In this document: piece after piece, positions 2,564 to 58,964 of the stretch
Layout of the letters: every line of letters starts with the position of its first letter
Numbering within the stretch: the first letter of the stretch is position 1
IMG/VR virus record: IMGVR_UViG_3300010430_000025
Span: 1-64,000 of that record
Length of the DNA stretch: 64,000 bases
From: a virus
Direction: 5' to 3' (one strand)
The notes under the pieces: generated by a model
The model's input: only the letters and a program-made list of their open reading frames with translations
Databases searched by the model: none
Told to the model about the DNA's origin: nothing
Made by a program: the position numbers and the translations under genes

Positions 2564-2879
2564 ATACCCTTTTACAACAACCGACCTTTTAAGAAGTATT
2601 TTAAACCTAAAATGTGCTATTGGCACAGAGGTGGGAAATATGAATACTGATTTAAAAAACGGTAAGGACGTAACTAAAAGACAGATTAAACTAAGCGATA
2701 TGCGGGTAGTGTTAATCTCTTTAGAAAGGTATAACCCCTTTTACTATGCAGATACGTCTATAAATTGTTTAACCATAGACCAAGTTGGTATATTAATGCA
2801 AAAAGCAAAGCAATACGGTGAAAGCTGTAATTGCAATTCCCCTACTCGACCAGTTACTATCCCCTCTTTCTATTATTAA
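2553..2879 (+). CDS. Hypothetical virion-associated protein, 108 aa
   Basis: The gene starts with GTG 2553, inside the end of the preceding gene. The protein (MAAKYPFTTTDLLRSILNLK..., ending SPTRPVTIPSFYY) has four cysteines, including a CNC near the C-terminus that echoes the CNCDCGC tail of its neighbour. The family was not recognised. A paired structural or assembly role with 1766-2563 is inference. Confidence 0.55.
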   Translation: MAAKYPFTTTDLLRSILNLKCAIGTEVGNMNTDLKNGKDVTKRQIKLSDMRVVLISLERYNPFYYADTSINCLTIDQVGILMQKAKQYGESCNCNSPTRPVTIPSFYY

Positions 2880-2903
2880 TAAGATATATTCCTATAAAAA
2901 TAC

Positions 2904-2911
2904 TAAATTTG
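2904..2911 (+). promoter_or_regulatory. TAnnTTTG box before a GTG start
   Basis: TAAATTTG ends 4 nt before GTG 2916, the same spacing as at several other late genes. This spacing supports GTG as the start. Confidence 0.55.
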
Positions 2912-2915
2912 AAGA

Positions 2916-3632
2916 GTGCAAGTAAAACATATACCTTCTTCACAAGTATTAGCGATAGTAAAGCAAAGGCTTAGATTATCTACGGAAAACTATGATGGGT
3001 TTTTAAACTTAGAATTAGAGTTAATACTACAAAATATTTATTCTCCTGCGGTATATAATAGCTATGAAAGAGTAGTAGAGGTGTGTGATAGCTCTTTTAA
3101 AGTTGCTGGGGCAAAACGATTGTGGGGAGTTCAACTGTGTAGAAATGAAGGCACAGACTCTTCTCTATCACTAATAGACCTTTCAGGAGCTTTTTTTATG
3201 CTATATGATTTAGCTAAGACAACAGTTCCTGTATATGGGGGTTGTTTATTAGACGATTACGTTGTTTATCAAGATGGGTACTGGAAGTTTCATAACGAAA
3301 CTGACGAACTATACGCTAAAGTTTGGTACGAAGGATTTGCTATTGACGATGAAGGGTTTGTTCTTATACCAGAGAATTACCAAAGTTTTCTAGGAAACGA
3401 GTTATGCAGTAGATTTCTGACGAGCTTCCCTAATTATATGAATAACAACCCTAATCTTTCTTTACAATTAGCAAGGACATATAATAGAAAAGCAAGTTTA
3501 GAATACCTTAATGTTAATGGGCAAGACCAGCAGGTAAGAGCCGACGAGACTAAAAACCAATGGAGGTTTGCTAATAGTAAGATAAGAATGAACAGTCCAT
3601 ATTGGAGCGGATATGCTTTTAACAGGATTTAA
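2916..3632 (+). CDS. Hypothetical virion protein, 238 aa
   Basis: Starts with GTG 2916 (MQVKHIPSSQVLAIVKQRLR...). It has an N-terminal helical part and a C-terminal part rich in aromatic residues and Asn. No recognised motif is present. It sits between the Cys-rich pair and the lectin-like protein, so a tail or baseplate-adjacent role is plausible but unproven. Confidence 0.55.
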   Translation: MQVKHIPSSQVLAIVKQRLRLSTENYDGFLNLELELILQNIYSPAVYNSYERVVEVCDSSFKVAGAKRLWGVQLCRNEGTDSSLSLIDLSGAFFMLYDLAKTTVPVYGGCLLDDYVVYQDGYWKFHNETDELYAKVWYEGFAIDDEGFVLIPENYQSFLGNELCSRFLTSFPNYMNNNPNLSLQLARTYNRKASLEYLNVNGQDQQVRADETKNQWRFANSKIRMNSPYWSGYAFNRI

Positions 3633-3634
3633 TT

Positions 3635-4411
3635 ATGAGTATTGGATTTCGATTTGGGTTACAAAAAAAAAGGCGCAGACTTGACCCTGATGCAGCTAAC
3701 TTTTTTACTGTGACGGGTATAACAGACCCAACACAAAAAGAGGCTGTAAATTATTTAGCAACAGAGTTAAAGTCTGAGAGTTTGTGGAGCAAAATGGATG
3801 TGATTTCTCCCTTTGTAGGCGGCAATGCGTCTGCCCATAGTTATAATTTAAAAGATACTTCTCAAAATCAAATAACTTGGAGCGGGACAGTAACACATAA
3901 TGCAAACGGAATAACAGGAAACGGAGTTGATGGTTATGGCGATACAGGTTATATAATAGACCCTGCAAACCAAAACGATTTACACATGAGCATATACCAT
4001 CGAAATAATATTACTACAGGGGTAACAATAGGTACTTTGGGTGCAGCTAATGTTTCTTTTATCATTATACCGTATAACGGCATCGAATATGAGTCTCGAA
4101 GCAATAGCTTTGCGGGCGGCAATACGGCAAACGCAAATTCTACAGGTTTTTTTCTTTCTTCAAGAAACGGATTGACGGATGCAAAGTCATACAAAAATGG
4201 CTCTGTAATATTAACCGATGCGCAGGGTACTAATACGCCTTCTCTATTCCCAACATACATTTTGGCACGAAATAACAATGGAACGGCAGATTTTTTTACT
4301 TCTTCTAACTTAGCTTTTGCGAGTATCGGTGAAAAATTAAATGATGCAGAAGCCTTGCTGTTTTATAATATCGTTCAACAATATCAAACATTATTATCAC
4401 GTAACGTCTAG
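3635..4411 (+). CDS. LamG/concanavalin-like tail appendage protein
   Basis: A 258-residue protein. The segment from about residue 50 (SLWSKMDVISPFVGGNASAH, then SYNLKDT and TWSGTVTHNANGI) through the C-terminal IGEKLNDAEALLFYNIVQQY follows the pattern of phage lectin-like beta-sandwich proteins that bind surface glycans. Starts 2 bp after the previous stop. A receptor-binding or adhesion role is inferred from the family-like pattern and from neighbouring fibre genes. Confidence 0.6.
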   Translation: MSIGFRFGLQKKRRRLDPDAANFFTVTGITDPTQKEAVNYLATELKSESLWSKMDVISPFVGGNASAHSYNLKDTSQNQITWSGTVTHNANGITGNGVDGYGDTGYIIDPANQNDLHMSIYHRNNITTGVTIGTLGAANVSFIIIPYNGIEYESRSNSFAGGNTANANSTGFFLSSRNGLTDAKSYKNGSVILTDAQGTNTPSLFPTYILARNNNGTADFFTSSNLAFASIGEKLNDAEALLFYNIVQQYQTLLSRNV

Positions 4412-44351: not shown

Positions 44352-44383
44352 CAAAGATAACGGTAAATAAATTTAAGATGCAA
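44352..44383 (-). promoter_or_regulatory. Leftward promoter (distal) inside tRNA trailer
   Basis: TTG (44381-44383), a 21-bp spacer and TATCTTTG (44352-44359) on the reverse strand. Its start point would fall at the edge of the 17-bp repeat arm. Confidence 0.45.
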
Positions 44384-44396
44384 GAAAAAGTTTTTG

Positions 44397-44481
44397 TGAG
44401 GCTAATTGGATTCGAACCAATTGTGTATCAAAGTACCAGTTTTACAGACTGGCGCAACTCCACCATCGTTGCCGTAACCTC
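44397..44481 (-). tRNA. tRNA-Tyr (GTA)
   Basis: The reverse strand folds as a class II tRNA of 85 nt. The acceptor is GAGGTTA/TAGCCTC, the anticodon stem CCAGT/ACTGG has loop CTGTAAA (anticodon GTA), and the T arm is ATTGG-TTCGAAT-CCAAT. The variable arm is 14 nt and the discriminator is A. CCA is not encoded in full. It is last in the leftward cluster of five. Confidence 0.9.
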
Positions 44482-44486
44482 ATTTG

Positions 44487-44571
44487 CGGAGAGTGAAGGA
44501 TTCGAACCCTCACCAGTGTTACCTGCACTCCGTTTTCAAGACGGGGGCATTACCGTTAATGCTAACTCTCC
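44487..44571 (-). tRNA. tRNA-Ser (TGA)
   Basis: An 85-nt class II tRNA on the reverse strand. The acceptor is GGAGAGT/ACTCTCC with discriminator G, as expected for Ser. The anticodon loop is CTTGAAA (anticodon TGA), the long variable arm pairs AGTG with CACT, and the T loop is TTCGAAT. It is separated from tRNA-Tyr by 5 nt. Confidence 0.9.
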
Positions 44572-44575
44572 GTTG

Positions 44576-44662
44576 CGGAAGAAAAGAGAATTGAACTCTT
44601 GCCGCTTTTACACGGACTACTTTAGCAGAGTAGCGCAACAAACCAACATTTGCCTTCCTTCC
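44576..44662 (-). tRNA. tRNA-Ser (GCT)
   Basis: An 87-nt class II tRNA on the reverse strand. The acceptor is GGAAGGA/TTCTTCC (one G-T pair) with discriminator G. The anticodon stem CTACT/AGTAG has loop CTGCTAA (anticodon GCT), and the T loop is TTCAATT. Four nucleotides separate it from tRNA-Ser(TGA). Confidence 0.87.
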
Positions 44663-44666
44663 ATTG

Positions 44667-44739
44667 TACTCGGAGCGGGATTCGAACCCGCAGCATACAG
44701 ATTTTAAGTCTGTCGTGTTTACCTTTTCACCACCCGAGC
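44667..44739 (-). tRNA. tRNA-Leu (TAA) with a short variable region
   Basis: A 73-nt tRNA on the reverse strand. The anticodon stem ACAGA/TCTGT has loop CTTAAAA (anticodon TAA), the T arm is GCGGG-TTCGAAT-CCCGC, and the acceptor GCTCGGG/TCCGAGT closes with a G1-T72 wobble; discriminator A. The variable region is only 5 nt (ATGCT), whereas bacterial tRNA-Leu normally has a long variable arm. The decoded amino acid is therefore inferred from the anticodon alone. Confidence 0.78.
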
Positions 44740-44744
44740 AATTG

Positions 44745-44819
44745 TACCTTGTATAGGATTCGAACCTATAAAATTTTTGTTCCTAAGACAAACGCGTATA
44801 CCAATTCCGCCAACAAGGC
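44745..44819 (-). tRNA. tRNA-Leu (TAG) with a short variable region
   Basis: A 75-nt tRNA on the reverse strand. It has a typical tRNA-Leu D arm (GGCGGAATTGGTATACGC), an anticodon stem TTTGT/ACAAA with loop CTTAGGA (anticodon TAG), and a T loop TTCGAAT. The acceptor is GCCTTGT/ACAAGGT with a G1-T72 wobble and discriminator A. The variable region is 6 nt, again without the long Leu arm. It is first in the leftward cluster. Confidence 0.82.
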
Positions 44820-44821
44820 AT

Positions 44822-44853
44822 AAAAAAAGCCCCAAGATTTCTCAAGGGGCTTT
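44822..44853 (-). terminator. Leftward terminator or attenuator before tRNA cluster
   Basis: AAAGCCCC/GGGGCTTT, a 12-nt loop and seven T on the reverse strand, directly ahead of tRNA-Leu(TAG). It ends the candidate small RNA described at 44822-44943. Confidence 0.8.
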
Positions 44854-44943
44854 GTATAAATATTATAATTTACTCAATATAGTCCCTTAGCGTGCCGTAA
44901 CGACAAACTTAAATAAAGACTATATAGAGTTGTTATCTTCATG
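44822..44943 (-). ncRNA. Candidate 120-nt small RNA upstream of the tRNA cluster
   Basis: A leftward promoter (44948-44977) should start a transcript near 44943. It first folds into a 13-bp stem with one mismatch (44918-44930 with 44872-44884) enclosing a 33-nt loop. It ends in a perfect 8-bp hairpin AAAGCCCC/GGGGCTTT (44846-44853 with 44826-44833) followed by seven T. Promoter, folded body and intrinsic terminator together indicate a discrete RNA. Partial read-through would reach tRNA-Leu(TAG) 3 nt later, so it may also act as an attenuator. Confidence 0.55.
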
Positions 44944-44947
44944 GCAA

Positions 44948-44977
44948 CAAAGATAAAACAAGAATTTATAAAAGCAA
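44948..44977 (-). promoter_or_regulatory. Leftward promoter of small RNA / tRNA cluster
   Basis: TTG (44975-44977), a 19-bp spacer and TATCTTTG (44948-44955) on the reverse strand. It is divergent from the early promoter at 44991-45020. Confidence 0.6.
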
Positions 44978-58804: not shown

Positions 58805-58877
58805 GGGGCAATGGTGTAACGGTTAACATATTCGGGTCGCTCCCGTTTGAGTTCAGGTTCGAATCCTGATTGCTCCA
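58805..58877 (+). tRNA. tRNA, probably Ala (CGC)
   Basis: A 73-nt cloverleaf. The acceptor GGGGCAA/TTGCTCC includes a G3-T70 pair, the alanine identity element. The D arm is GTGT/ACAT and the T arm is TCAGG-TTCGAAT-CCTGA. By position the anticodon is CGC. Discriminator A also fits Ala. The anticodon stem is weak: only CGG/CCG pairs plus two T-T mismatches, and position 37 is T rather than a purine. The isotype is therefore tentative. Confidence 0.6.
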
Positions 58878-58964
58878 CAAAACTAAAATCAAGGTGAATA
58901 AGAGCGACCTTACGCTTATTGATTAGCTACCAATGAGTGGACAAAGCAACCTTTAATTAAAGTT

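Follow-up and report, generated by a model that had tools for sequence, protein, structure and literature searches.

What is the function of a short, strongly folded and terminated RNA encoded immediately in front of the tRNA genes of a phage? This question is raised by a locus in the window, that is, the whole 64-kb stretch of DNA analyzed here, which derives from a 73,393-base virus record. The initial annotation described the locus (Table 1) as a discrete small RNA of an unrecognised family, and added in an aside that its terminator could also attenuate tRNA synthesis. The structural elements of that description are all present and the aside points to the best explanation; the headline of a discrete small RNA is not supported, since the codons of an ORF within the locus match the tRNAs of the operon, terminator and operon lie only 3 nt apart, and the same layout recurs in many phages with residues that depend on the tRNAs downstream. 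The locus is best read as a ribosome-mediated (trp-type) transcription attenuator acting on a phage tRNA operon, a reading to which a probability of about 0.88 is given.

Table 1. Features of the leader locus and of the downstream tRNA operon (positions in the window).
Feature	Positions	Strand	Basis
Predicted promoter, TTG-N19-TATCTTTG (Bacteroidota-type)	44948-44977	-	Exact pattern search
Leader peptide ORF, 22 codons, MKITTLYSLYLSLSLRHAKGLY and stop	44874-44942	-	Best-ORF score versus dinucleotide shuffles
Regulatory codons CTA TAT AGT CTT TAT TTA AGT TTG TCG TTA (L Y S L Y L S L S L)	44898-44927	-	Sequence
Segment 1 of the 1:2 stem, spanning leader codons 5-9	44918-44930	-	Fold
Segment 2 of the 1:2 stem, ORF end	44872-44884	-	Fold
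Antiterminator 5′ side, UAAGGG	44884-44889	-	Modelled pairing with 44848-44843, ribosome stalled in codons 8-14
CCCUUG, 3′ side of the antiterminator, lying within segment 3 (5′ arm of the terminator)	44843-44848	-	Modelled pairing
Intrinsic terminator (3:4), then seven T	44822-44853	-	Present in MFE fold
tRNA-Leu(TAG), first gene of the operon	44744-44819	-	
tRNA-Leu(TAA)	44666-44739	-	
tRNA-Ser(GCT)	44575-44662	-	
tRNA-Ser(TGA)	44486-44571	-	
tRNA-Tyr(GTA), last gene of the operon	44396-44481	-	

Promoter, Terminator, and Leader ORF

The -33/-7 form TTG-N19-TATCTTTG is a known Bacteroidota promoter type, and the leftward promoter that had been proposed for the locus matches it exactly. Over the whole window the motif occurs at 17 sites versus 11.8 ± 3.4 in shuffles, an enrichment so weak that the promoter call relies on position as well as consensus. 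Its -7 box ends 5 nt upstream of the ATG of the leader ORF, and the mRNA is therefore probably nearly leaderless. Both the stem of 13 bp with one mismatch and the hairpin with seven T were recovered in the MFE fold of the leader RNA (approximately 44944 to 44822), whose energy is -35.2 kcal/mol versus -20.2 ± 3.7 in shuffled sequences (z -4.0), none of 200 shuffles being equally stable. As expected of a trp-type attenuator, the intrinsic terminator lies between the ORF and the first gene. The 3-nt spacing initially noted is also correct, with the T-run ending at 44822 and tRNA-Leu(TAG) starting at 44819, which leaves no space between the two for a separate tRNA promoter. Further along, a second TTG-N-TATCTTTG promoter-like site is found at 44352, in a gap without clear genes (44352-44158, minus strand); behind it come inverted GCGCC repeats and, at 44185-44158 on the minus strand, a strong terminator.

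Although the region in front of the tRNAs had been described as a gap without genes, it contains a minus-strand ORF (44942-44874) that reads ATG AAG ATA ACA ACT CTA TAT AGT CTT TAT TTA AGT TTG TCG TTA CGG CAC GCT AAG GGA CTA TAT TGA. Ten consecutive residues, LYSLYLSLSL, comprise only Leu, Ser, and Tyr, which is the exact amino-acid set of the five downstream tRNAs. A leader ORF rich in operon-linked codons belongs to the definition of trp-type attenuators, and when the upstream 350 nt were dinucleotide-shuffled 20,000 times, only 4 of the shuffled sequences equalled the match of this one to its own tRNAs. No other short ATG ORF of the window has such a run, and none with a comparable Leu/Ser/Tyr run was found in 830 kb of cellular control DNA; a BLAST search with the 22-aa peptide gave no phage matches.

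The genes that follow are tRNAs, not amino-acid biosynthesis genes, and in an Rfam scan of the whole window tRNA models alone reached the threshold, with no match to T-box or amino-acid operon leader families. Bacterial tRNA-Leu usually has a long variable arm; both tRNA-Leu genes of the window (44666-44819) are just 74-76 nt long (ARAGORN), with a short variable region, and annotated tRNA-Leu genes of 77 nt are also present in Bacillus phage P59. A lone tRNA-Ala(CGC) lies far from the cluster (58805-58878, plus strand) and has no leader.

Recurrence in Phage tRNA Operons

The first independent case came to light when tRNA-Leu genes preceded by a T-run were sought by pattern: in a 482-kb contig, MKTTLSLSLSLSLSLSGWTNRAM, a stop codon, and a terminator precede a Leu, Ser, Ser, Ser, Leu, Leu operon. 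This contig and the genomes LR756501, LR756502, and LR756504 (four phages of 482-735 kb) were surveyed by scoring the best short ORF upstream of each tRNA operon head for runs of own-operon residues, with dinucleotide shuffles as the null. A self-matching leader was found at P ≤ 0.01 in 16 of 88 operon heads, or 16 of 62 when operons of at least two tRNAs are counted. For instance, an operon of four Gln tRNAs is preceded by MTTSFQQQQQQQINRTD, one of Pro, Phe, Pro, Phe, Val, and Val by MKKVNNIIPQFQFVVPF.., one of Glu, Ala, Ile, Val, Gly, and Glu by MKTVNTNIAIVEIAVIGGAEEGV.., and one of Trp, His, His, Phe, Lys, and Ser by MLQTSKHSKHFSSSSKWF... Runs such as QQQQQQQ before Gln, LSLSLSLSLSLS before Leu/Ser, and SKHSKHFSSSSKWF before Trp/His/Phe/Lys/Ser illustrate how a leader names the amino acids of its own operon. 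Nearly all leaders share a common layout, namely ORF, stop, about 20 nt, terminator, and the first tRNA usually 6-30 nt further on; one hit, at 7675 of contig L037, has no terminator.

A terminator closely upstream of a tRNA was the sole criterion by which IMG/VR contigs were chosen, and 40 of 302 operons of at least two tRNAs reached P ≤ 0.01 among the matches listed; the same first terminator pattern gave no self-matching leader in 69 operons of cellular genomes, the P-values being per operon and the operons partly selected for terminators, as was the cellular control. A second IMG/VR scan with a different terminator pattern found self-matching leaders in 23 of 129 operons, again among the matches listed. 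The majority of tRNA operon heads have no detectable leader. One 132-kb contig (L144) carries at least three different self-matching leaders (2862-3912 and 12741), for example in front of an operon of Gln, Pro, Asp, Gln, Pro, and Asp, where the leader is MKNVNKNIVVMPQPMQDQD...

The dependence of leader on operon was also evident when the ORF was chosen blind: tRNA identity was ignored, and among ATG ORFs whose end lies 10-45 nt upstream of the terminator the longest was taken. The 122 viral leaders chosen in this way scored 827.6 against their own operons versus 310.6 ± 18.4 after permutation of the operons among them (z = 28; maximum 404; 0 of 20,000 permutations reaching 827.6), so that richness in operon-linked codons holds for the class as well as for the window. 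A smaller earlier version of the test gave 144.9 versus 44.2 ± 10.1. Under the blind rule the cellular set yielded just 3 ORFs and no own-operon signal. Taken together, the tRNAs of operons that have a matched leader cover all 20 amino acids. Specificity at the level of codon boxes was significant for Arg (P 0.0006) and not for Ser or Leu, and the matching signal may therefore lie at the amino-acid level. Upstream of 79 leaders, a TAnnTTT[GA] box occurs within 60 nt in 38, the expected number being 13.

Relatives and Cultured Phages

Searches by neighbouring proteins, portal protein, peptide, and tRNA-Leu did not find a close homologue of the window locus. The neighbouring and portal proteins led to two weak matches and one portal homologue of 53%, none with a comparable tRNA operon, while the window's own tRNA-Leu sequence retrieved three unrelated contigs, none with a leader. 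Leu/Ser/Tyr leaders do precede Leu/Ser/Tyr operons in four other contigs: MKRDLLYSSLSLLSLWRGR in L121, MKKLWCSYSSFLLLLSGRGS in L087, MRNLLLSYYSSLSLL.. in L099, and MQNQSLYSLLSLCYS.. in L327. The last of these also contains Cys, and the L327 operon has a tRNA-Cys. In L087, L121, and L327, as in the window, the ATG is preceded at a distance of a few nucleotides by a TAnnTTTG box.

Among cultured phages, three leaders are present in Cellulophaga phage phi38:1 (KC821614), and Calle_1 carries an identical set; the clearest of the three, MNVTLLHQEPLEQLRLPSRV.., stands in front of Pro, Glu, Gln, His, Leu, and Arg tRNAs (P 0.003). In Cellulophaga phage phi4:1, MKTNYCTYNNSNWSFSYDTG.. precedes Tyr, Ser, Asn, Trp, Phe (P 0.003), and Maribacter phage Panino is likely to carry self-matching leaders. 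None of the leaders is among the GenBank features shown for the regions concerned. Between about 7490 and 7575 of phi38:1, just before tRNA-Ser, there is an unannotated tRNA-Tyr-like sequence with GTA in the anticodon loop (identified by eye), and the leader upstream of it contains Tyr codons. Leaders were sought in T4, T5, crAss001, and Bacillus phage P59 with none found, and Escherichia phage ESCO13 and Vibrio phage VPp1 gave no convincing case.

Short leaders of a CWPP..GGMS type stand before Trp-Pro-Cys tRNA operons in L320, L322, L328, L347, L406, and other uncultured phage contigs. Covariation of residues and tRNAs in this family (Cys, P 0.047; Pro, P 0.14) is weakly informative, because leader residues persist when a tRNA has been lost or cut off. 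The sigma-70-like promoter of L320, TTGACA-N17-TATAGT as read by eye, hints that hosts may extend beyond Bacteroidota.

Alternative Folds

A further property of trp-type attenuators, a 1:2 hairpin joining the regulatory-codon region to the ORF end, is provided in the window by the long stem of the fold. Modelling predicts mutually exclusive folds. The terminator 5′ arm would be sequestered at 0.78 when the ribosome is stalled and at 0.06 when it is at the stop codon, compared with 0.52 in shuffled sequences (p 0.02). The 2:3 duplex of the window is short and on its own not significant (p 0.25), and in an equilibrium model the terminator has P = 1.00 for each stall position. Antitermination in the window would therefore have to be kinetic, and the trp attenuator model is likewise kinetic.

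Pairing of the ORF end with the terminator 5′ arm exceeds that of shuffles at p ≤ 0.05 in 21 of 33 leaders (13 of 33 at p ≤ 0.01), and perfect 2:3 matches of 12-14 bp are found in L020, in L038, and in the Lys leader of L041. Averaged over 47 leaders, modelled sequestration of the 5′ arm is 0.73 with the ribosome stalled mid-run and 0.12 at the stop codon, versus 0.47 in shuffles and 0.39 for cellular ORFs. Viral operon heads without a leader match partly follow the same pattern (0.60 and 0.22), which makes the structural test less discriminating than the residue match.

Proposed Mechanism and Alternative Explanations

The ORF, its residue match, the terminator, the spacing, the promoter motif, and the recurrence can be read from the sequence; that the leader is transcribed and translated, that ribosomes stall and polymerase reads through, and what the physiological signal would be, we infer. 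RNA polymerase would start at the TATCTTTG promoter, and a ribosome would load on the leader ORF at once. With Leu-, Ser-, and Tyr-tRNAs well charged, the ribosome would reach the stop codon and cover segment 2, the terminator would form, and the operon would be off. When charged tRNA is scarce, the ribosome would stall in the LYSLYLSLSL codons and cover segment 1, and the freed segment 2 could pair with the terminator 5′ arm before the 3′ arm exists, allowing readthrough into the Leu-Leu-Ser-Ser-Tyr tRNAs. The newly made tRNAs would relieve the stall and close a self-limiting loop. If the leader is untranslated, the 1:2 stem would form and the operon would remain off. The quantity sensed would thus be the charging level of the operon's own tRNAs, and likely occasions may be depletion of host tRNAs during infection or by tRNA-cleaving defences. 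A wider proposal, which we hold to be evenly balanced, is that phages possess an array of tRNA sensors, in which each operon senses the loss of exactly its charged tRNAs (e.g., through host anticodon nucleases or further defences that cleave tRNAs) and replaces them on demand in a closed loop, with all 20 amino acids covered across phages.

Other explanations have to be weighed against this attenuator. A discrete small RNA that acts in trans, is made from a promoter of its own, ends at its own terminator, and lies next to the tRNAs by coincidence is very improbable: promoter, stable fold, and terminator do delimit an RNA of about 120 nt, but an ORF listing the amino acids of the downstream tRNAs, recurring elsewhere with different lists, is left unexplained, and the 3-nt gap gives the tRNAs no promoter of their own. 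Unlike an independent small RNA, the RNA of the window has an ORF linked to the genes downstream. A northern band is compatible with both readings, because in the "off" state the attenuator, too, would build up a terminated leader RNA about 120 nt long.

The leader peptide could instead respond to a general slowdown of translation, as in ribosome inhibition or amino-acid starvation, the residue match reflecting only the usual demand of the phage. The weak codon-box specificity for Leu and Ser agrees with this idea; we nevertheless judge it very improbable as well, given that in the permutation test leaders list the set of their own operon and not a shared set. Dominance of the terminator at equilibrium and the weak 2:3 pairing of the window would also suit a passive device that senses nothing and determines tRNA dosage either as a partial terminator of fixed strength or as a hairpin for RNA processing. 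Such a device, the least probable of these alternatives, gives no role to the matching of residues and tRNAs or to the long perfect 2:3 complementarity of many leaders.

Significance and Comparison with Known Systems

The purpose of phage-borne tRNAs is described as having been unclear for more than 50 years (PMC10264068). If the attenuator reading is correct, the leaders state in the phage's own code when tRNAs are wanted, namely when the listed charged tRNAs run short, and the question would become directly testable in cultured Cellulophaga phages. The leaders would also link phage tRNAs to tRNA-cleaving defences, show that leader-peptide attenuation serves tRNA supply in addition to amino-acid synthesis, and allow hidden small ORFs of phage genomes to be annotated by a simple sequence rule.

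The mechanism class is known, ribosome-mediated attenuation having been analyzed for the trpL, hisL, leuL, and ilvBNC leaders of amino-acid operons (PMC1183508). Its use on tRNA operons is apparently undescribed, with priority not proven: no description of attenuated tRNA operons whose leaders spell their own tRNA set was found in the literature searched, a scope outside which most subscription papers fall. Numbers of tRNAs in huge phages were reported by Al-Shayeb et al. (2020; PMC7162821), who assigned the class above 634 kb to Bacteroidetes hosts; LR756501, LR756502, and LR756504 (636-735 kb) fit this class, and the word "leader" is absent from the text of that study.

Phage tRNAs replace host tRNAs cleaved by defence systems and can evade those defences (PMC10264068, PMC11555353, PMC13096335). 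These systems share with the window locus the product and a plausible purpose, the restoration of depleted tRNAs. The abstracts of these studies describe no regulated, demand-driven synthesis of phage tRNAs, whereas the window locus would be both sensor and switch. T-box leaders similarly couple tRNA charging to terminator readthrough; unlike the window leader, they bind uncharged tRNA directly and have no ORF. With the trpL, hisL, leuL, and ilvBNC attenuators the phage leaders share a short ORF with regulatory codons, predicted 1:2, 2:3, and 3:4 alternatives, and a terminator before the first gene. Those attenuators belong to cellular operons and act on genes for the synthesis of one or a few amino acids, while in the phage leaders the regulated product would be the tRNA itself, up to about 10 amino acids can be listed, and several different leaders occur in one genome.
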